Origin: an uncultured Flavobacteriales bacterium
GTDB lineage: Bacteria > Bacteroidota > Bacteroidia > Flavobacteriales_D > Sanyastnellaceae
Direction: 5' to 3'
NCBI GenBank assembly: GCA_943787435.1
Contig: CALSMK010000014.1
Span: 1-64,000, forward strand
Length of the DNA: 64,000 nt
The notes below the pieces were generated by a model, which was given only the letters and a program-made list of their open reading frames with translations, was not told the DNA's origin and searched no databases. The position numbers and the translations under genes were made by a program. Each line of letters starts with the position of its first letter. Within the stretch, counting starts at the first letter, position 1. Below, one piece after another: positions 52,264-62,788 of the stretch.

Positions 52264-53313
52264 TCAATCTAAGCCGTCGAGCAGACGTCTCACAGCGTCA
52301 AATGGCTGAATTTGTGCGTGTTGGACTTCGCTTTGCAGTTGTTTCCATGCCGCTTGGAATCCGGGCTTGGATCGCATGCGATGGAGCATTTCGCTGTTGA
52401 GCATCGATTCTAACATGTCCGCGTGTTGTCTCGCCCTTCTCGCATCCAAGTGTCCCCGGGTTCGCGCGGCGTCTAGCCGGGCTTCGATTCGGTCGACCCA
52501 TTGCGAAACGCTCTTGTTGTCCAATGCGGAACCTGTGCCAAAAAGAGGGGGCTCCCCATCGAGAGGAGGGGGCAGAAGGTCGAGCGCGCCTCGGTAGGCC
52601 GCCAAGCTGGCTTTGGCCAGTTCCACGCGCTCTTTGGGTCCATCCGCCTTGTTCATGAGCACCACATCGGCCCACTCCAAGATTCCACGCTTGATGCCTT
52701 GAACCCCATCGCCACCGCCCGGCAGCATGAGCAGCACAAACACATCGGTCATTCGCCGCACTTCAATTTCACTTTGGCCCACACCCACGGTCTCAATCAA
52801 AATGCGGTCAAAGCCGGCAGCTTCGCAGAGCCTTGCGCTTTCTGATGTCGCGCGCGCCACTCCGCCCAGCGTTTCTCCAGTGGGAGAGGGGCGGACAAAG
52901 GCCGATGGGTGTTGTGCCAGCCCGTCCATTCGGGTTTTGTCGCCCAACATGCTGCCACCTGTGCGGCTGCTGGAGGGATCCACAGCCAAGACAGCCACGC
53001 TGTGGCCTTGTTTGATGAGGGACATGCCAGCGGCTTCAATCCAAGTGCTCTTGCCCACACCGGGGACGCCGGTAAAGCCGTAGCGCAATGCCTGCCCATG
53101 GGCAGGGGGCAGGGCGGTCATCAAGGCCTCGGACCGGTTGCGGTCTTCAGGCCGGTGACTTTCGATCAAGCTGATCGCTTTGGCCAAGGCCACCCGGTCT
53201 CCGGATTGAATTCGATTGGCCCAATCCTCCATCTCGGCAGGGGGATGCGCTTTCGCTTGTCGAATTCTTTCAACCGCGCGTCGTCGGGCTTCGTTTTCAA
53301 GATCTTTGGCCAT
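52264..53313 (-). CDS. meaB: MeaB/ArgK G-protein chaperone of methylmalonyl-CoA mutase
   Basis: 349 residues. Walker A GVPGVGKST, the family pattern DPSSSRTGGSMLGDKTRM, IETVGVGQSE (switch-like) and the base-recognition NKADG. MeaB uses GTP to protect and reload the B12 cofactor of methylmalonyl-CoA mutase. It starts 36 bases from a divergent plus-strand gene. The window also carries IcmF, whose family contains its own G-domain, so MeaB most likely serves a separate MutAB outside the window. Confidence 0.95.
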   Translation of the reverse strand: MAKDLENEARRRAVERIRQAKAHPPAEMEDWANRIQSGDRVALAKAISLIESHRPEDRNRSEALMTALPPAHGQALRYGFTGVPGVGKSTWIEAAGMSLIKQGHSVAVLAVDPSSSRTGGSMLGDKTRMDGLAQHPSAFVRPSPTGETLGGVARATSESARLCEAAGFDRILIETVGVGQSEIEVRRMTDVFVLLMLPGGGDGVQGIKRGILEWADVVLMNKADGPKERVELAKASLAAYRGALDLLPPPLDGEPPLFGTGSALDNKSVSQWVDRIEARLDAARTRGHLDARRARQHADMLESMLNSEMLHRMRSKPGFQAAWKQLQSEVQHAQIQPFDAVRRLLDGLD

Positions 53314-53349
53314 GCCGCGTACAAGTTAGCGGTAGTTTAAGGCCCGAAG

Positions 53350-54138
53350 ATGAGACCCATGAATGCGATTTTGGCGATTGTGCCTTTGTGTTTGCTGACG
53401 TGCGCATGTGCAATGGGCACGGCCCAAGTTGTGCCCGATACCACGGTGTCGATTTCGGTGGGGTTGGCCGGTGAAGTGTTGGGCCCAGATGGAAGGGGGC
53501 TGCCGGGCTGCATGATTGTGAACCGTTCCACTGGAGAGGGGCGTTTTGGAAGCGCCAGTGGCAGGTTCGCTTTGGACGTTTCGCCCGGGGACACCCTTCA
53601 GTTCGCCTCCATTGGATTCAGGACCGTCAGCCGCAAGGTTCCCATCGACTTGCCCACCAAGTCGGGAGGGTGGAACTGGACCATTCACTTGGCGCGCATG
53701 GCCGTCGATGTGGCCACCGCAGAGATCATCGCTCCCCGAGACCTTGGCGAGATTGTGCGCGATATCCAGGCTCTGGGGTACAACGAAAAGGAAAACCGCA
53801 CCAGCGGAATCAACGCCTTCACCAGTCCCCTGACCTACCTGTATGAGCAGCTCAACAGAATGGAGCGGAGCAAAAGGGAAGTGGCCAGGTTGGAAAATGA
53901 AGACCGCAGGAAAGCGCTCTTGAAAGAGCTGTTGGGCAAGTATGTGGACTTTGAAATCGTCTCTCTGAGCCCAGAGGAGTTCGATGCTTTTGTGGCCTTT
54001 GTGGATCCGGGCGAAGCGGTGTTGAAAGCCTTGACTCAATATGAGTTTATCCTGTGGACTCGGGAACGTTTTCTTGCATTCAAATCTCAACCGGAACGGC
54101 TGGAGGGGTCGGACTTTGAATACCAATGGGACGATTGA
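53350..54138 (+). CDS. Exported protein with carboxypeptidase-like regulatory domain
   Basis: 262 residues with a hydrophobic start (AILAIVPLCLLTCACAMGTAQ), either a signal peptide or a lipoprotein signal. Residues about 35-110 form a CarbopepD-regulatory-like beta sandwich: GEVLGPDGRGLPGCMIVN, SASGRFALDVSPGDTLQFASIGFRTVSRKV quoted in part as GRFALDVSPGDTLQF. A helical, charged C-terminal half follows (EQLNRMERSKREVARLENEDRRK). Common in Bacteroidota envelopes; function unknown. Confidence 0.7.
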   Translation: MRPMNAILAIVPLCLLTCACAMGTAQVVPDTTVSISVGLAGEVLGPDGRGLPGCMIVNRSTGEGRFGSASGRFALDVSPGDTLQFASIGFRTVSRKVPIDLPTKSGGWNWTIHLARMAVDVATAEIIAPRDLGEIVRDIQALGYNEKENRTSGINAFTSPLTYLYEQLNRMERSKREVARLENEDRRKALLKELLGKYVDFEIVSLSPEEFDAFVAFVDPGEAVLKALTQYEFILWTRERFLAFKSQPERLEGSDFEYQWDD

Positions 54139-54145
54139 GTCGACC

Positions 54146-54262
54146 CGGAATTTGAAGCGGAGCTGACGCCGAAAGGAAAGCTGATGTCAAGGGTGAAGAA
54201 AACACCAAGGTTGAAGCCAACGCCAACAATGAAGCTGACGCGAACAATGAAGCTGACGCCAA
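54146..54262. repeat. Degenerate 15-base repeats between convergent genes
   Basis: Units of the type AATGAAGCTGACGC(G/C) recur, two of them exact (AACAATGAAGCTGACGC), with looser copies before them. In one plus frame the block reads as an acidic EADA/NANNEAD-rich peptide but there is no start codon; it follows the stop of the gene at 53350 by 8 bases. Confidence 0.5.
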
Positions 54263-54269
54263 GGGCGAC

Positions 54270-54611
54270 TTACTCCAGGTAGGAAGAACTCAAGTAGAAG
54301 GTGAAGGCTTTGAAGACCAGTCCAGCGCCGGCAATGGCCACGCAGAAGATGCGCGCATTCCGCCTTTTGGATTCGTACTGATCAAAGCGAACCACCAAAT
54401 CCAAGAAGAGCGAGATGGCGGCCACGGCTTCGAACAAGGTGACCCAGCCACGGCGCTCGTCAATGAAGGCCATGGCCTGTTCGGCCAAGTTGTTGGGCCA
54501 GACAGAGGCCAGCGAAGTGTCGGCCAAGTAAATGGCGTTGTACGCCACAAGCAAGATGAGGCTCACATCGAGCATGCGTTGCTCTGTGCGGGATTCTTCA
54601 GCGCTTTCCAT
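54270..54611 (-). CDS. Small membrane protein, four helices at most, unknown function
   Basis: 113 residues from ATG at 54611. Hydrophobic segments: MLDVSLILLVAYNAIYLA, TLFEAVAAISLFLDLVV and IFCVAIAGAGLVFKAFTFYL; an acidic start and a WPNNLAEQAMAF loop. No recognised family. Convergent with the regulatory-domain gene and next to a small divergent lipoprotein gene. Confidence 0.6.
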   Translation of the reverse strand: MESAEESRTEQRMLDVSLILLVAYNAIYLADTSLASVWPNNLAEQAMAFIDERRGWVTLFEAVAAISLFLDLVVRFDQYESKRRNARIFCVAIAGAGLVFKAFTFYLSSSYLE

Positions 54612-54691
54612 GGATGCGAAGGTAGAGGGGGGAATCGACCCAGAGATTTCCGACGCAACAAAACACACCCTACATTCGTTGTCACTCTGCC

Positions 54692-54934
54692 ATGTCGAAT
54701 CAAGACCGTCCCAAAGTCCGTGTGATTGCCCTTCGGCGCAATGGAACTCCATCCCCATTCAAGGGAATCGGACGACAAGTGAGAATGCAGCGGATGGCCG
54801 TGATTTTGATGGGAAGTTTGTGGGTTCTTGCCTTCGCCACAGGGTGCAGCCGGAACACCAAGAACTGCAGTGCATACGACGGAATTCAGCTTGAGCTGAA
54901 CGCCACAGCGCCGGATTCAGGCGCTCAAAACTGA
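54692..54934 (+). CDS. Small predicted lipoprotein
   Basis: 80 residues from ATG at 54692, or 49 from an internal ATG at 54788 that gives a shorter signal. A hydrophobic run ends in the lipobox FATGCSRN, so mature protein is about 30 residues (NTKNCSAYDGIQLELNATAP). Its end overlaps the convergent MBOAT gene by 10 bases. Either start would give an inner- or outer-membrane-anchored peptide; function unknown. Confidence 0.5.
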   Translation: MSNQDRPKVRVIALRRNGTPSPFKGIGRQVRMQRMAVILMGSLWVLAFATGCSRNTKNCSAYDGIQLELNATAPDSGAQN

Positions 54935-56634
54935 AAGTAAATAAACGGGGTCCCTCCAGCGGACAACACAGCCATCGCCACGCCCACAGCGGCCACGGCG
55001 GTGACGATTTGCACCCCAAAAGGCGCTGTGGCAAAAGCCATCCGATAGCGTGACTTCCACGTCGATGGAAGCAGGTGAATGACATAGCCCAGGCCCATCA
55101 CCAAGAAGACGTGCCCAAAGTGAGAAGTGACCTCACGGATGACTTCCCACGATGTGGCTGAAGCCAATTGGGTCAGCACCGAATTCGCAGCCGACCATTC
55201 TCCTTCCAAATCGTGGTTGGTTCCAAAACTGGCCCAAGTGGTGTGCGATGCCGTGCGAAACCAAATTCGGGTGAAGGTGATGAAATGGAAGGTCAAGAGA
55301 ATGGCCACGGCGCGCTTCCATATTCGATCCTTGTTTTCCCAAGGGCTCACCTTTCTCCAAAGCTTGTATACGGTGATGCCCAAGCCATTGAGTCCCCCCC
55401 AAATCACAAAGTTCCAGCTCGCTCCATGCCACAGGCCACCGAGGAGCATGGTCATCCATATGTTGACATTGGTGATGACCCAACGACGGAACCGAGGGAT
55501 GCGTGACATGGCGATGGCTCCACCCACCAAGGCCGCGAATAGTGTTCCGATGAAGGTGGGGTCGGGGTAGAGGAGGACCACGAACGTGAGCAGGAAACTG
55601 GCGCTGATGGCAGTGAACCAAGAGGCGCTGCGGTTGCCGCCCATGGGGATGTACAAGTAGTCTTTGAGCCAGCCGCTCAAGCTCATGTGCCAGCGGCGCC
55701 AAAAGTTGCCACAGCTGTCGGCTTTGTAGGGGCTGTTGAAGTTTTGGGGCAGCCGGTATCCCATCAACAAGGCCACGCCGATGGCCATGTCGGTGTACCC
55801 GCTAAAGTCAGCGTATACCTGCAAGGAATAGCCGTACATGGCCATGAGCACCTCGAATCCGCTGTGCGCATTGGGGGCGGCAAAAACCCGATCATTGAAG
55901 TTGACCGCGATCCAATCGGCAAGCAAGACCTTTTTCATCAACCCATTGAGGATCCAAAAACCGGCCAAGCCCACCATGTCTTTGGTCAGTGCCGCCGGGC
56001 GGAGTATTTGCGGCACAAAATCCGCAGCGCGCACAATGGGACCGGCCACCAATTGAGGGAAGAAGGACACGTAGAATCCAAAATCGCTGAGCCTTTTCAG
56101 GGCCTTCACCTGCCGCCGGTGGATGTCGACTGTGTAACTGATGGTTTGGAAGGTGTAGAAGCTGATGCCAACCGGCAGAAGAATGCGGTCCACCGACCAT
56201 TGCGTGCCCAACACTTCGTTGGCGCCCATCGCCAGCCAGTTTCGGGGAATGATGTCCCAACCTGTGGCGCTGTTCCAGGCATCGGTTAGGAAGTATGTGT
56301 ACTTGAAATAAAACAGCAAGCCCAAGTTGAGCAGGATGCTCAGGGCCAACCATCGGTTGCGGCTCCCTTGTCGGTCGCTGCGCTCAATTCGGTGTCCGAT
56401 GAGGTAGTCGCTCAGGGTGGAGAAAAGCAGGATCAGAACAAACCACCCAGAGGTCTTCCAGTAAAACAACAGACTGGCCATGAGCAGCCAAACGTGGCGC
56501 AGGGTCCGGCGCTTGTCCTTGTGCATCAGACCGTCGATGGCCAGCACCCCCATCAGAAACAGCCAAAACCCCACATCCAAGAAGGTCCAAGGCGCACCGG
56601 GATGGAAGGTCAGTATATCGCGCAGCTCCGTCAT
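54925..56634 (-). CDS. MBOAT-family O-acyltransferase (AlgI/PatA-like)
   Basis: 569 residues with ten or more membrane helices. It shows MBOAT marks: FYTFQTISYTVDIHRRQ, FFPQLVAGPIVRAADFVPQ, DFSGYTDMAIGVALLMGY and the histidine motif WHGASWNFVIWGGLNGLGI, with WRRWHMSLSGWLKDYLYIPMGGNR in between (cited in part as WRRWHMSLSGWLKDYLYIP). This subgroup imports acetyl groups across the membrane for O-acetylation of alginate, peptidoglycan or other glycans. Its start overlaps the stop of the SGNH gene by 4 bases. Last gene of the four-gene operon. Confidence 0.92.
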   Translation of the reverse strand: MTELRDILTFHPGAPWTFLDVGFWLFLMGVLAIDGLMHKDKRRTLRHVWLLMASLLFYWKTSGWFVLILLFSTLSDYLIGHRIERSDRQGSRNRWLALSILLNLGLLFYFKYTYFLTDAWNSATGWDIIPRNWLAMGANEVLGTQWSVDRILLPVGISFYTFQTISYTVDIHRRQVKALKRLSDFGFYVSFFPQLVAGPIVRAADFVPQILRPAALTKDMVGLAGFWILNGLMKKVLLADWIAVNFNDRVFAAPNAHSGFEVLMAMYGYSLQVYADFSGYTDMAIGVALLMGYRLPQNFNSPYKADSCGNFWRRWHMSLSGWLKDYLYIPMGGNRSASWFTAISASFLLTFVVLLYPDPTFIGTLFAALVGGAIAMSRIPRFRRWVITNVNIWMTMLLGGLWHGASWNFVIWGGLNGLGITVYKLWRKVSPWENKDRIWKRAVAILLTFHFITFTRIWFRTASHTTWASFGTNHDLEGEWSAANSVLTQLASATSWEVIREVTSHFGHVFLVMGLGYVIHLLPSTWKSRYRMAFATAPFGVQIVTAVAAVGVAMAVLSAGGTPFIYFQF

Positions 56635-57926
56635 TCGGTCAGGGATTCATGGGCGACGGCGGCCCGAGTGAGCGTATCGTACAAGAGTTCTCCAATCAGG
56701 ATGTAGCCATCTCGGTTGAAGTGCAGCCTGTCGCTCGCCGCCATTCCCTCGCGGTACAGCTGATCCATGGAGTGGGCGCCTCCCAATGCTTCATAGAGGT
56801 CCCAGCAGGCCACCTTTTTTTCAATGACCAAGTCCAGCATCACGTCCTTCACCGCTTCGGCATTGGGGTTGTGCCTGTGCTTGTAGTGGCTGTCATTGTT
56901 GGTGACCAGCAGAATGCATACGTCGGGGCAGGCCATGCGCAAAGAGTCGATGATGCGGGCATACCTCTGTTTGAACCGCTGAGGGTTAAATCGCTCAGGG
57001 GCCATGTGCGCGTCGTTGATGCCCCAAGCCAAAATGGCCAGGTCGGCGCCCACTTCTCGCAGTTGAGGGACCAAGTGGGGGTGCCTGAGCCAGGCGGCTG
57101 AACTCGCGCCATTTCCACCCAGGTCATGGTAGATCAAATCGGGGTCCATGGGGGGGTGGGCCACCCCTTGCACATAGGCCGTTTCCCCAGCTGGAGGAAT
57201 GAGGAGCAAGGTGTCGGGCAGGTCTTCGCCCTCCAGATCTACGGTCAAGACCCCACTGGAATCGGCGTGAAATGGGCGCTCCAATCCCGCCACGGACCAA
57301 TGGCCAATGTGGCCAGGTCGGGTCAGCAACATCAGTGAAGAGGCGCAGGATTCTCCAGCCGGTTTTCCTGTCCACACCCGCAGCGTGTCGCCTTGTTCTG
57401 CGCTGGCTTCCAATCCGGTCAAGCCCCATTGACCGCTGTGCCTGCGGTGCGCCGACCGCTGACCGCGCCACTCTGATGGAGAATCCCAACCGGTTCCTGG
57501 AGGTCCATTTTCGCCCACCAGTCTGTGGGGCGGGAGGATGCCCCGGGACACAGTCAGGCCAGGTCGATCCGCTTGCAAACGTTGGCGGAATGCCCAGCCA
57601 ATTCTGCCGGCTTGGACATGCGACCCGCCAAAGTGAAGGAGGTTCAACGGGGCAGAGGTGGCAGGCCCCTGGTCCAAGAGCAGGGCATGCCAATCCTTCA
57701 GGAATGGACCCAGGTTTTCTTCGCCGAACAAGACGGATTCTGTAGGGTGCAAAAAGGAAAGCGATTCGGATCGAAGCGGGTCCGTCGCCTGTGGCTTGCG
57801 GATTTCGGAGGTCAACTCCGCTTCCAACGCCGCGTCGGACTGACTCCACAAGTCGGTCATCATCCCGCCGAGCATCCACGCCATGGCCACCGTTCGCCAA
57901 GTGAAGATCCGATCAGGGGCCATCAT
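56631..57926 (-). CDS. SGNH/GDSL-type hydrolase, envelope O-acetylation operon
   Basis: About 431 residues from ATG at 57926 (57923 also possible). The start overlaps the upstream gene's stop. Signal anchor (TVAMAWMLGGMMTDLWSQ) then an SGNH domain: block I LLHFGGSHVQAGRIG (serine in GGS), block III LAILAWGINDAHM (asparagine of GxND), and block V DRLHFNRDGYI (Asp and His). Such enzymes remove or transfer acetyl esters on glycans and appear beside MBOAT proteins as PatB-like or AlgJ/X-like partners. The glycine in place of the usual aspartate of GDS is notable. Confidence 0.82.
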   Translation of the reverse strand: MMAPDRIFTWRTVAMAWMLGGMMTDLWSQSDAALEAELTSEIRKPQATDPLRSESLSFLHPTESVLFGEENLGPFLKDWHALLLDQGPATSAPLNLLHFGGSHVQAGRIGWAFRQRLQADRPGLTVSRGILPPHRLVGENGPPGTGWDSPSEWRGQRSAHRRHSGQWGLTGLEASAEQGDTLRVWTGKPAGESCASSLMLLTRPGHIGHWSVAGLERPFHADSSGVLTVDLEGEDLPDTLLLIPPAGETAYVQGVAHPPMDPDLIYHDLGGNGASSAAWLRHPHLVPQLREVGADLAILAWGINDAHMAPERFNPQRFKQRYARIIDSLRMACPDVCILLVTNNDSHYKHRHNPNAEAVKDVMLDLVIEKKVACWDLYEALGGAHSMDQLYREGMAASDRLHFNRDGYILIGELLYDTLTRAAVAHESLTE

Positions 57927-59748
57927 TGGGGGTTTGAATGGATTGAACGGCCTGAGCTGGGCGCCGGGCAATGCTGGTCATGGGGGTGCGGTCACCTCCT
58001 TTCTTCCATGCCCTGAATTCGGCCCACAGGGCGCGGTCTAATAGTTTGCCAACCTGTTTGGCACCCAGTGGTGTAAAGTGAATGTGGTCGGGTCCGGCCA
58101 GTGGGGGAGTGGCCTTGACCCAGGCGGGCATGCTTCCCAATCCCCCCATCACATCCAACAGGTCCCAATGGGCAGCGCCTGCCTCCAACGACACTTCCTT
58201 GAGCGCATCGCGGACAGCCGAAAGTCGAGGGAATGGCGTCCAATTCAGGCCAGACTTCTCGGCCATGTCGGAGGGGCCTATCACCAGAATGGCCGCACGC
58301 GGTTGGAGGGCTTGAAAAAGTTCAATCTGGCGACCAAACCAACCGGCATAGCGAACAGCGGCGACGGAGTCCCGGCAATAGGGCACAGTGTTTCCGCCGA
58401 ATTGCAAAACAATCAAGTCGGGGTCGATGCTTCGGAGTTGCCTTGAGAATGTGGGGCGGTGCAGTTTTCGAAACAAGGTGCCCGACGAACCGCGCATGGC
58501 CACCGAATGCCATTGCACCCCGCCCCCAATGGGGTGCACGGCGAACAATCGGGGCGGCGCCGCACTGAAGCACAGTTGAGAGCGAGGGGCTCGGGTCTGT
58601 CCGGCAGGAATGGAAACCAGGCGCTGGCCAGGCGGATCGCCAGGGCGCAGGGTGTCGATGGGCGTTCCATTCAAGCTCAGGATGGATTCGCTGTGAACGG
58701 TGTCGTGCCAAAGCGACAAGTTCGACCAGCGGCCAAAGCTCTTGTGGTTGCGTTTTTCGGGCCCGATGGTCAAGCAAGGGCCTTCACCAGAGTCGGCCAC
58801 GGCGGTCGCATAGCTGCCCAGGAGACCATAATTTTCATCTTGGTCGGTGCTGTCACGGCGACCGAAGCGGGTGTGCCGCGACCAATCGCCACTGTGGGAT
58901 TGGGAAAGGGCAAAGCTCTGCACCAAGGGGATGGGCGGTTGGATGCCCGGTCCAAATCCACCCCAGCGCTCCTGCCACTGGTGACGCAATGTCCCAGAAA
59001 TGCGGTCGCCTTCGATTTGGCTGTCGCCGTAATGAAGGACGGTGATGGGCACGCCGTCATCCAAACGCCGAAAGAGACTGTCAAAGGCCGGTTGTGCTTC
59101 CTCGGGAATGCGAATCCGAAGGGCGCTGGAAATCCAGTCGCTGGCCATGGATGGCACAGGGGCCGGCGTGGGCGTGGGTGACGAAGAAGAGGCGGAGGCA
59201 GAGCTGTCGCCTGACGAAGCCTCGAGCGGCATGCCAGAATCGGCGGTCGCCGGCGTCCGGGCTGTTGAATCTGCAGAGGTTGCCGATGTTGGCCATCCGA
59301 TGGATGCTGAGGGTTCGCTTGTGCCTTGGGGAGTCAGAGGGTCCAGACCTTCGGGCCGCGGACCTTCAGCCTGCGGACTTGCCGACAGCGGACTTCCTGA
59401 CAGTGGGCTTTCAGCGGTTTGGGAGTTGACGGAATCCGCGAAGGGTGACACCTCGGCGCCATCCCCGCTTGCATCGGCCGCCTCTGCAGCGGACAATTGG
59501 CTGTCGTATTCCTCAAGCAAGGCCTGCACATCGTCAGGAGACCAGCGCGGAATGATGGGGGTGACCGACTCAGGGGTCAGCCACGGCGCAAAAGCATGGG
59601 GCATGGTCAACTTGACCTTGGTCCCCATCAAGTTCCAACCGTCTTCTGGACACAGGCGCGCCAGAGTAAGGGCAGCACAACCGATGACCACCAAGGCAAT
59701 CAAGGGCCGCCAACGGCCATCATTGGATGGAGCATCCGGCGCATTCAT
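57913..59748 (-). CDS. SGNH hydrolase with a long Ala/Ser/Pro-rich linker
   Basis: 611 residues. N-terminal membrane anchor (PLIALVVIGCAALTLARL), a long low-complexity linker (residues about 80-200; SPLSGSPLSASPQ, SSSSPTPTPAPVP) and an SGNH domain: VLHYGDSQIEGDRI (block I with GDS), LIVLQFGGNTVPY (block III), and PDHIHFTPLGAKQVGK (block V). It is the bigger of two tandem SGNH genes and overlaps its neighbours at both ends. The anchor plus flexible linker suggests a domain reaching into the periplasm toward the wall. Enzymatic direction (esterase or transferase) is unknown. Confidence 0.82.
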   Translation of the reverse strand: MNAPDAPSNDGRWRPLIALVVIGCAALTLARLCPEDGWNLMGTKVKLTMPHAFAPWLTPESVTPIIPRWSPDDVQALLEEYDSQLSAAEAADASGDGAEVSPFADSVNSQTAESPLSGSPLSASPQAEGPRPEGLDPLTPQGTSEPSASIGWPTSATSADSTARTPATADSGMPLEASSGDSSASASSSSPTPTPAPVPSMASDWISSALRIRIPEEAQPAFDSLFRRLDDGVPITVLHYGDSQIEGDRISGTLRHQWQERWGGFGPGIQPPIPLVQSFALSQSHSGDWSRHTRFGRRDSTDQDENYGLLGSYATAVADSGEGPCLTIGPEKRNHKSFGRWSNLSLWHDTVHSESILSLNGTPIDTLRPGDPPGQRLVSIPAGQTRAPRSQLCFSAAPPRLFAVHPIGGGVQWHSVAMRGSSGTLFRKLHRPTFSRQLRSIDPDLIVLQFGGNTVPYCRDSVAAVRYAGWFGRQIELFQALQPRAAILVIGPSDMAEKSGLNWTPFPRLSAVRDALKEVSLEAGAAHWDLLDVMGGLGSMPAWVKATPPLAGPDHIHFTPLGAKQVGKLLDRALWAEFRAWKKGGDRTPMTSIARRPAQAVQSIQTPNDGP

Positions 59749-61124
59749 TGAACGGGAACACGCAGGCGCATGCCAGGTTGCAGGTTTTCGGCCGGTGTGT
59801 CATTGCTCTTCATCAGAAGCTCGAGACCCACGTTGGGGTACTGGGCGGCAATGGACCAATAGGACTCTCCGTCTTTGACGGTGTGCCAGACCCAACTGAT
59901 TTCCGAAGGGGAGGACACTGGGGCTTGGGGACTGGGGCTGGATGGTGCTGTGGGCGGAGCGCAGCGCATGTTCAAGGCCTGTCCCACGCGGATCAAGTCT
60001 CCGTTGAGGCCATTCCAACGCTGGATTTCTTCGATGCGCACCCCGAACCTGCGTGCGAGGGTGCCCAAGACTTCGCCCGGCATGACAGTGTGGACCCAAA
60101 GAAAACCAGGTTCCTTTTGACTGGGTCGCCAAAGGCACCAGTCAGAGCGCTGCTCTGGTGTGGTCCCTTCAATCATTTCGGAGGGAATCAAAACCTGGTT
60201 TCTGGATGGGGTCAGGCCGATAGAGTCGGTGGTGAACCAAGGGTTTTCATCCCTCACACCCCGGATGTCGACATTGAGTTTGGCCAAATGCTGAAAGAAC
60301 AAGGTGGGAGAACTGTCGCATACATGAGAAGACCATTCTTTGGAGCGCAGGGCCCACAGTGCAGAAAAGCTGTCCCGCTCAAAGTTCCGGTCCACTTGAA
60401 GCATCACCCTGAGCAAGTGCAGCCAGCCCAACAAGTCGGCATCCAACGAACCTGAATCAAACGACCTCGCCGCTTGCTCCCCGCGAACAAACGCCAAGAC
60501 TTGTCGGATGGGGGATGCTTTGAACCCTTGACCCACCTGCGCAATCCTAACACAGGCCGCAGCCGCCATGGCTTCTGGAACGTGGCGCTCATCCCAACCT
60601 CGTCGGATGTCCAAGCCCAAGAGCAAGGCCGTTGGCATGTCCATGGCCCATGCGCCGGCCCTGCGGTTGGGGCCGTAATAGCTGTTGTCCCATCCGGTCA
60701 GAACCATGGGCAGCACCGACCATTCGCTGGGCAAATTTTGCGCCTGGAGGCTCTCGATCATGGCCGGTCGATGCCGGTCGGCCAAGGCGTGAACCAGTTT
60801 GAACCGCATCATGCCCCCTTCTAAGATTCGCCCCAACGCGCGGTCGGCGTGGTGTTCGGCCAGCGGCAGGTTCTCCAACTCCTCAATCAAGGTTTCGGCC
60901 CATGGACTCAAGGGCCGCCATTGGTTCACGGTCAGTTGGGGGCTCATGGGGGTGGTGAGGCACCCGGGCTCAATCCTTTCCAAATCACCGGCCCACGGCC
61001 TGTTCTCCAAGTCGGACACCATGACCGCCCATCGTTGCAAATCAGGCTGCGCAACCACAGGGTTTTTGGGCAACAAAGCGAGGCCCAAACAAATCACAGC
61101 CATTGACCGGGTCATTATCAGCAT
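59745..61124 (-). CDS. LysM protein with inactive lytic-transglycosylase-like domain
   Basis: 459 residues with signal peptide (SMAVICLGLALLPKNPVVAQ). The middle region is laid out like the MltD/SLT fold: LPSEWSVLPMVLTGWDNSY, RAGAWAMDMPTALLLGLDI and RRGWDERH, matching LPxELxxLPxxESxF, AxGLWQFxPxTxxxxGL and WyDERRD. The catalytic glutamate position (V-E-S-A-F in active enzymes) reads V-L-T-G-W, so it should be inactive (near residue 142). Two LysM motifs follow, the first VMPGEVLGTLARRFGVRIEEIQRWNGL and the second WHTVKDGESYWSIAAQYPNV; they bind peptidoglycan. First gene of the operon, divergent from a hybrid kinase by 65 bases. Confidence 0.75.
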   Translation of the reverse strand: MLIMTRSMAVICLGLALLPKNPVVAQPDLQRWAVMVSDLENRPWAGDLERIEPGCLTTPMSPQLTVNQWRPLSPWAETLIEELENLPLAEHHADRALGRILEGGMMRFKLVHALADRHRPAMIESLQAQNLPSEWSVLPMVLTGWDNSYYGPNRRAGAWAMDMPTALLLGLDIRRGWDERHVPEAMAAAACVRIAQVGQGFKASPIRQVLAFVRGEQAARSFDSGSLDADLLGWLHLLRVMLQVDRNFERDSFSALWALRSKEWSSHVCDSSPTLFFQHLAKLNVDIRGVRDENPWFTTDSIGLTPSRNQVLIPSEMIEGTTPEQRSDWCLWRPSQKEPGFLWVHTVMPGEVLGTLARRFGVRIEEIQRWNGLNGDLIRVGQALNMRCAPPTAPSSPSPQAPVSSPSEISWVWHTVKDGESYWSIAAQYPNVGLELLMKSNDTPAENLQPGMRLRVPVQ

Positions 61125-61189: not shown

Positions 61190-62788
61190 ATGTCCTCGAA
61201 ATCCATCCACCATGTGGAAATGCGTGAGCGCATTTTGGCGTTGGAAAAGCAGGTGGCCAAACTCCAGGCGAAACAACAGAACTACCAGGGAATCCTCGAG
61301 AACATGGAATTGGGGATTTTGGAGGTGGACCTGGATGAACGCATCGTGAAGGCTTACCCCAAATTCTGTGAGCTTCTTGGCTATACCGAGGAGGAGTTGA
61401 TGGGGGAAAAGGCCTCTGAGAAGCTGTTGGATCGGGAGCTCCATGATCAAATGGACAAGCAGACATTGGCCCGCAACAATGGTGAGTCAGGACTTTATGA
61501 AGTGCCTGTCAGAACCAAGTCAGGGAAGGCGAAGTGGTTGCTCATCAGCGGTGTTCCCGTGCGAAATACCAAGGGGGAAATCGTGGGGTCGATGGGCACC
61601 CACTACGACATCAGTGAGCGAAAGCGGGACGAAGAAGCGCTGATGCTGGCCAAGGATGAAGCGGAGAAAGCGCGTCAAGCAGAGCGCGAATTCTTGACCA
61701 AAATGAGCCATGAAATCCGCACCCCCATGAATGCCATCATGGGCATGTCTGTGCTCATGAGTGAGACGGGCTTGGATGCCGATCAAAGAAAATTGCTCAA
61801 TGGCATCCAGCATGGAAGCGCCCTTCTTCAGCGCATGCTCGATGGTGTCATGGACCTGTCAAAATTGGAGGCCAATAAAATGGAGTGTCGGTTGGAAGCT
61901 GCAGAATTGGCTCCCCTTTTTGAAGCTGTTGTGGCCTCATTTGAACCGCTTCTGCAAGAAAAAGGCGTGTCCCTCAGCTGTTCTTTGGCACCGGAGTTAA
62001 ATGGCAAGTTCATGGTGGATGGCCCCGTACTTTCCCGCGTGCTCATGAACATCATTGGCAATGCGGCCAAGTTCACGGCCAAAGGTGCCATTGAAGTATC
62101 GGCCCAATGGAACCAAGTTGGGGAGGGAGAAGATGGACGGCTGGACGTGCAAGTGAAGGACTCGGGAGTGGGCATCGATGCTTCAGATGTAGAACACATT
62201 TTTGGCCGTTTTAAGCAGGCTTCCAACCGAAAAGTTGAACACGGTGGGACCGGTCTTGGGTTGGCCATTGTGAAGGAGCTGTGTCAGCTGCATGGAGGCG
62301 ATGTCTCCGTGGAAAGCACGTTGGGAAAGGGCAGCACATTCTTGTTTCATTTTGCGGCAAGGAAGGTGGCCTTTGAGAAAAACAAGGCCCATCGAGAAAT
62401 TGCAGATTTGAGGGGCATCCGGATTTTGGTTGCCGAAGACAACGAGCTGAATCTGTTTTTCATTCGAACCCTGCTCAAGCGCTGGGGGTGCAACGCCACC
62501 TTCGCTTCGGATGGACATGAAGCCATCGAAGAATGGAGGTCCAAACCGTTCGATGTGATCTTGATGGACATTCAAATGCCCAATTTCAATGGGCTGGAGG
62601 CAGCTGCAGTGATTCGCTCAGAAGAAAGGGAGCATGACAAAGCTCACCTCCCCATTGTGGCCTTGAGTGCTTTTGCCTTTGATCACGACAAAAAGGAAGC
62701 GCTGGGCGTTGGAATGGATGATTACTTGATCAAGCCTTACACCGAGGAACAGCTGATGAATGTCTTGCGCAAATACAGGCCTGCCTGA
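61190..62788 (+). CDS. PAS-domain hybrid histidine kinase with C-terminal receiver
   Basis: 532 residues from ATG at 61190. No membrane helix or signal, so cytoplasmic. N-terminal coiled coil ([21 protein letters not shown]), PAS domain ([22 protein letters not shown] to [13 protein letters not shown]), HisKA with [13 protein letters not shown], ATPase boxes [26 protein letters not shown], and a receiver with the aspartate in VILMDIQMP and the lysine of [11 protein letters not shown]. It lacks DNA-binding output. Its start faces the LysM operon across only 65 bases, so the two may share control. Confidence 0.94.

Follow-up and report, generated by a model that had tools for sequence, protein, structure and literature searches.

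A predicted MltD pseudoenzyme heads a probable peptidoglycan O-acetylation operon in Flavobacteriales

In Bacteroidota, the genes for peptidoglycan O-acetylation were described in 2005 as a cluster with the order ape1b-ape1c-pat, with members in Bacteroides and Porphyromonas (Weadge et al. 2005, PMC1199599). Such an OAP cluster is recognised by one or more Ape-type SGNH genes adjoining pat, and Bacteroides species with ape1b-ape1c-pat carry 27-69% O-acetylated peptidoglycan. In Neisseria and Campylobacter, the PatA/PatB/Ape1 system (PMC12148441, PMC5077204) has one PatB and one Ape1. The tyrosine of the FXYXXF motif is acetylated in PatA (PMC12148441), and in PatB the block II glycine is replaced by Ser or Asn, giving a noncanonical oxyanion hole.

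In Neisseria, a live lytic transglycosylase, LtgA, partners Ape1, which it binds and stimulates (PMC7083599). In DipM, an inactive LytM domain binds and activates wall enzymes (PMC10336132). Where a transglycosylase fold stays with acetylation genes after losing catalysis, as described below, partnering and cutting come apart, and the separation becomes open to test.

Layout of the operon and its likeness to known systems

The locus lies in a 64,000-nucleotide stretch of DNA (the window) from an uncultured Flavobacteriales bacterium, within an incomplete assembly of 2.1 Mb (79% complete). Its features, in positions of the window, are as follows.

59745-61124, minus strand: gene 1, pseudo-MltD (459 aa), with a signal peptide, an MltD-type domain without the catalytic Glu and two LysM domains (from Pfam, the structural model and alignment)
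57913-59748, minus strand: gene 2, SGNH1 (611 aa), with an N-terminal membrane anchor, a flexible linker and an Ape1-type SGNH domain with an inserted beta-sandwich
56631-57926, minus strand: gene 3, SGNH2 (431 aa, counted from the ATG), a predicted secreted Ape1-type SGNH protein
54925-56634, minus strand: gene 4, MBOAT (569 aa), an O-acyltransferase of the PatA/AlgI/DltB kind with an FWRRWH motif and a C-terminal FIYFQF
54928-54945, minus strand: codons of the FIYFQF hexapeptide at the MBOAT C-terminus, the predicted acyl-Tyr shuttle (FXYXXF motif)
61190-62788, plus strand: hybrid histidine kinase (PAS-HisKA-HATPase-REC), divergent from gene 1

The original prediction of four co-directional genes overlapping by 4-14 bases was borne out to the base: its coordinates are exact, and consecutive genes overlap by 4, 14 and 4 bases. 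Chance adjacency of the four genes is ruled out by synteny, since relatives show the same gene order, again with short overlaps. Pfam identified two LysM domains in gene 1, Lipase_GDSL_2 in both SGNH1 and SGNH2, and MBOAT in gene 4 (E 5e-21). Promoter and terminator scans gave no excess over shuffled sequences.

The SGNH1-SGNH2-MBOAT order reproduces ape1b, ape1c, pat, with an Ape-type SGNH gene adjoining a pat-type gene. As in the OAP cluster, two Ape1-family SGNH genes are followed by a PatA-type MBOAT gene with the same motif, F-W-R/N-R-W-H, seen here as FWRRWH. The arrangement had been taken as undescribed and the pair of SGNH enzymes as an extra element; neither view is supported by the 2005 account (PMC1199599), where this order appears and two such genes are the norm of ape1b-ape1c-pat, so that only the fourth gene is an addition. 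The three-gene core has thus been known since 2005, and the new part is the pseudo-MltD first gene, which the OAP cluster does not have in front. We found no mention of a fourth, LysM-encoding gene in the accessible text of Weadge et al. 2005 (PMC1199599). A further difference concerns Ape1c, which, in that same text, does not contain the insert of about 100 residues after motif I that SGNH2 has.

With the PatA/PatB/Ape1 clusters of Neisseria and Campylobacter, the locus shares the C-terminal FXYXXF of the MBOAT protein and an Ape1-fold SGNH protein encoded in the cluster. The gene order differs, however, and in place of one PatB and one Ape1 there are two Ape1-like proteins, neither with the PatB block II signature.

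Some 65 bases separate the histidine kinase gene from the start of gene 1. A similar kinase adjoins the operon across the genus, and also in two further genomes (G021, G027). The kinase is a possible regulator, which may or may not belong with the operon. Beyond the other end of the operon (52264-54758) lie genes for a meaB GTPase, a carboxypeptidase-regulatory-like-domain protein and a small membrane protein, whose position is kept genus-wide; by eye, the first two seem to lie near the operon in another genus too (L153).

A transglycosylase-derived first gene

The alignment of the gene 1 protein with an ordinary MltD from a relative covers almost the entire protein (hhalign probability 100, E 7e-44). 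Its predicted model has a mean pLDDT of 81.6, and the best structural match is MltD of Pseudomonas aeruginosa (8RHE/8RHF; Z 18.7, 290 residues aligned, rmsd 12.9, a value that includes a domain shift). Without the LysM part, the match comprises 241 aligned residues at Z 18.6 and rmsd 5.0. Pfam, the model and the alignment agree on an SLT fold followed by LysM domains, the domain order and fold also seen in P. aeruginosa MltD and the Bacteroidota paralogues.

Unlike those proteins, gene 1 has lost the catalytic Glu of the ES motif, which is replaced by Thr (LPMVLTGWD versus LPIVESALN in ordinary MltDs). At this position, each of the 37 pseudo-MltDs with a readable motif (25 and 12 in two sets; heading the cluster in nine genera of two families) has T, S, A or N, whereas every one of the 26 ordinary lytic transglycosylases in the comparison keeps the Glu. 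The pseudo-MltDs have lost the AYNxG motif as well, while the (G)LW...DER core is retained. The pseudo-MltDs are separate in the tree, with the ordinary MltDs all on one side of a branch of length 2.7 (SH-aLRT 100), and they evolve faster than ordinary MltDs. Gene 1 is further set apart by being encoded in the probable O-acetylation operon.

Purifying selection acts on pseudo-MltD: in a comparison with the nearest relative, gene 1 has a dN/dS of 0.16, SGNH1 0.19, SGNH2 0.15 and MBOAT 0.04. A decaying pseudogene is ruled out by the value for gene 1 and by open frames in many genomes. Judged by its sequence, the gene 1 protein is therefore predicted to be dead as a transglycosylase, yet it is maintained. 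The original description of a dead transglycosylase agrees with the end-to-end alignment to MltD, the closest model match and the Glu-to-Thr change. A literature search of open papers returned no precedent for a lytic transglycosylase pseudoenzyme.

Two partner systems bear a resemblance. In the LtgA-Ape1 complex of Neisseria meningitidis, a lytic transglycosylase fold likewise partners and stimulates an Ape1-type esterase, but LtgA is catalytic and is a lytic transglycosylase of another kind. We know of no operon of LtgA with pat or ape genes. DipM, like gene 1, combines LysM domains with an inactive wall-hydrolase domain and regulates other wall enzymes; its inactive domain, however, is a LytM endopeptidase rather than a transglycosylase, and it controls autolysins.

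The SGNH proteins and the acyltransferase

In sequence searches of the PDB, the top match of both SGNH1 and SGNH2 was Neisseria Ape1 (4k3u), followed by Campylobacter Ape1 (8gkd, 8gld). The SGNH1 model has a membrane helix (residues 13-32), a disordered linker (about 102-203, pLDDT <50) and a beta-sandwich inserted in the SGNH domain (about 281-417). With Foldseek, this model matched Ape1 of Campylobacter and Neisseria at TM 0.79-0.83 (target length; E about 1e-21 or better), and among the matches listed the next group had E 4e-07 or weaker. No PatB structure is among those listed matches, which is not to be read as evidence of absence. The long flexible linker noted at the outset is real, although it is mainly a trait of the window's genus and is shorter in most other genera.

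The catalytic triads are S243/D554/H557 in SGNH1 and S102/D399/H402 in SGNH2, with the block II and III residues G420 and N453 in the former and G273 and N304 in the latter. Across the families sampled (22 SGNH1 and 21 SGNH2 sequences), the triads and the block III Asn are conserved; the block II Gly is found in at least 90% of the SGNH1 set and in 21 of 21 SGNH2 sequences. G420 and G273 align with a Gly of 4k3u that lies 32 residues ahead of its block III Asn, a spacing identical to that of the Gly236 and Asn268 named for Ape1 in a review. Neither protein shows the block II replacement of PatB; filing SGNH1 or SGNH2 as PatB was rejected on this ground, and the operon thus encodes no canonical PatB.

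The Ape1 hallmarks, namely the SGNH fold, a beta-sandwich after block I, the triad and the oxyanion Gly and Asn, are seen for SGNH1 in the model and with Foldseek. For SGNH2 they are read from the sequence, in which about 200 residues between S102 and N304 are co-linear with two-domain NmApe1 and the block II motif is closer to Ape1. On this basis, SGNH1 is assigned to the Ape1 family by sequence and predicted fold, and SGNH2 by sequence.

The MBOAT protein matches DltB structures, and its C-terminal FIYFQF fits the FXYXXF pattern of the acyl relay. A terminus of this type is retained in the MBOATs of relatives, with variants such as PIYLQF in distant ones.

Distribution among relatives and proposed function

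Within the window's genus, about ten relatives have the four-gene order; beyond it, the order is shared by seven other genera of the family and by a single genus from a second family of the same taxonomic order. Nine genera from two families thus have pseudo-MltD at the head of the cluster, many of them with 4-base overlaps, and the LysM protein is conserved with the other genes. Synteny, on whose persistence in close relatives the original prediction had staked its case, held wherever the region was assembled, with one exception. The operon is dispersed in six genomes (G022, G023, G024, G026, G032 and G034), each of which still has the four genes. The tree does not split linked from unlinked pseudo-MltDs cleanly and so gives no direction for linked to dispersed or the reverse. 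Relatives of SGNH1 turned up in 30 genomes of a phylum-wide sample of 148 well-assembled ones; for the order, the figure was 146 of 199.

Departures from the full arrangement are of several kinds. In two genera (g3 and g14), the cluster consists of a LysM protein of 213-312 residues, SGNH1 and MBOAT; SGNH2 is missing, and the shortened head gene has mostly lost its transglycosylase part. Four families (f9, f17, f19 and f37) have the SGNH1-SGNH2-MBOAT core with no LysM gene in the cluster, and in one genome (G033) the cluster and pseudo-MltD are both absent. In a member of the window's genus (G005), pseudo-MltD and the flanking genes remain at the syntenic site while SGNH1, SGNH2 and a close MBOAT are gone; pseudo-MltD may therefore have another or an additional role, and might also work by itself. 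At that site (L085:4730-8312, plus strand), an OmpA-domain gene and a CotH gene stand in place of the three. Co-absence in G003, G008 and G015 was left uncounted, the flanking CpD-type gene also not being found in those incomplete assemblies. SGNH1 absence in G280 and G299 was likewise left uncounted; in G299, pseudo-MltD ends at the contig end.

From gene content and order, their conservation, the predicted folds of the first two proteins, the loss of the catalytic Glu and selection, we propose that the operon is probably a Bacteroidota (OAP)-type unit for peptidoglycan O-acetylation and de-O-acetylation, to which a non-catalytic, wall-binding MltD pseudoenzyme with a positioning or regulatory role has been added. 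By analogy with PatA chemistry and given its motif, MBOAT would transfer the acetyl group of acetyl-CoA to the Tyr of its own FIYFQF at the outer face of the inner membrane. An Ape1-fold SGNH protein would then accept the acetyl group on its Ser and hand it to muramic acid of the glycan strand. For such a cluster, with two Ape1-type proteins and no PatB-type protein, to be self-sufficient, one of the pair would have to serve as the transferase; SGNH1 is the likelier candidate because it stays by MBOAT when SGNH2 is missing. Soluble SGNH2 might strip acetyl groups or act at a second site. Pseudo-MltD, by analogy, would hold glycan strands through its two LysM domains and inactive groove, recruiting or tuning the SGNH enzymes with no cutting.

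Wall anchoring is favoured as the function retained by gene 1, on the grounds of the shortened forms, the LysM fusions described below and its conserved place at the head of the cluster. Its persistence with the operon in many genera suggests that it guides or regulates. A bolder version, which we put forward tentatively and at somewhat under even confidence, is that the pseudoenzyme has come to serve a peptidoglycan O-acetylation machine as its dedicated reader of glycan, with an Ape1-fold SGNH protein of esterase ancestry replacing PatB as the transferase in this phylum.

The substrate and the direction of the chemistry could each be read otherwise. It is doubtful that both SGNH proteins are only Ape1-type esterases, with MBOAT pairing with an SGNH protein encoded elsewhere and the operon serving mainly de-acetylation. 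The canonical oxyanion Gly in both proteins, unlike PatB, fits such a unit, but MBOAT is tightly coupled to the SGNH genes, SGNH1 and MBOAT are the sole enzymes left in the g3 and g14 clusters, and Bacteroides with the same three genes has highly acetylated peptidoglycan. The original prediction named peptidoglycan or capsule as the substrate. An O-acetylation cluster is supported, with peptidoglycan as the most likely target from the Ape1 matches, MBOAT motifs and gene order; capsule is less favoured. MBOAT-SGNH pairs do serve many polymers (PMC12148441), and the enzymes could acetylate capsule, exopolysaccharide or LPS in the manner of AlgI/AlgJ/AlgX, with the LysM protein only a wall anchor. 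This is unlikely, given that both SGNH proteins group with a peptidoglycan esterase by sequence, and SGNH1 also by fold, that their partner gene 1 descends from a peptidoglycan-cutting enzyme, and that the genes flanking the operon included no recognisable glycosyltransferase or polysaccharide-export gene.

The remaining alternatives concern gene 1. Pseudo-MltD might act independently of acetylation as a mere genomic neighbour, as its survival without the other three genes in G005 and its unlinked position in six genomes would allow. We regard this as improbable in view of its linkage, often with 4-base overlaps, in nine genera spread over two families, its presence in all six genomes with dispersed genes, and the shrunken LysM forms that still head the cluster in g3 and g14. 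That the protein is still lytic through a shifted catalytic acid is very improbable: although it keeps the fold and the (G)LW...DER core, all 37 sequences have T, S, A or N at the Glu position, with no acidic residue there instead, and AYNxG is lost. Overall, this is a genuine and conserved operon in which a predicted pseudoenzyme subunit, the new element, joins a core already known.

Variants of the cluster were also observed. A LysM domain lies inside SGNH2 in one genome (G083, residues 206-247), and a C-terminal LysM occurs on a related SGNH protein in another (G035; L100:7455-8876 and L156:4273-5742, both plus strand for these fusions); such LysM-SGNH fusions may be an alternative wall tethering of these enzymes. 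One distant family has an AMP-binding (acyl-CoA synthetase-like) gene inserted between SGNH1 and MBOAT (L093:8066-9787 and L098:8127-9860, both plus strand), and the acyl group there may differ from acetyl. At L093, a small extra SGNH gene precedes SGNH1.
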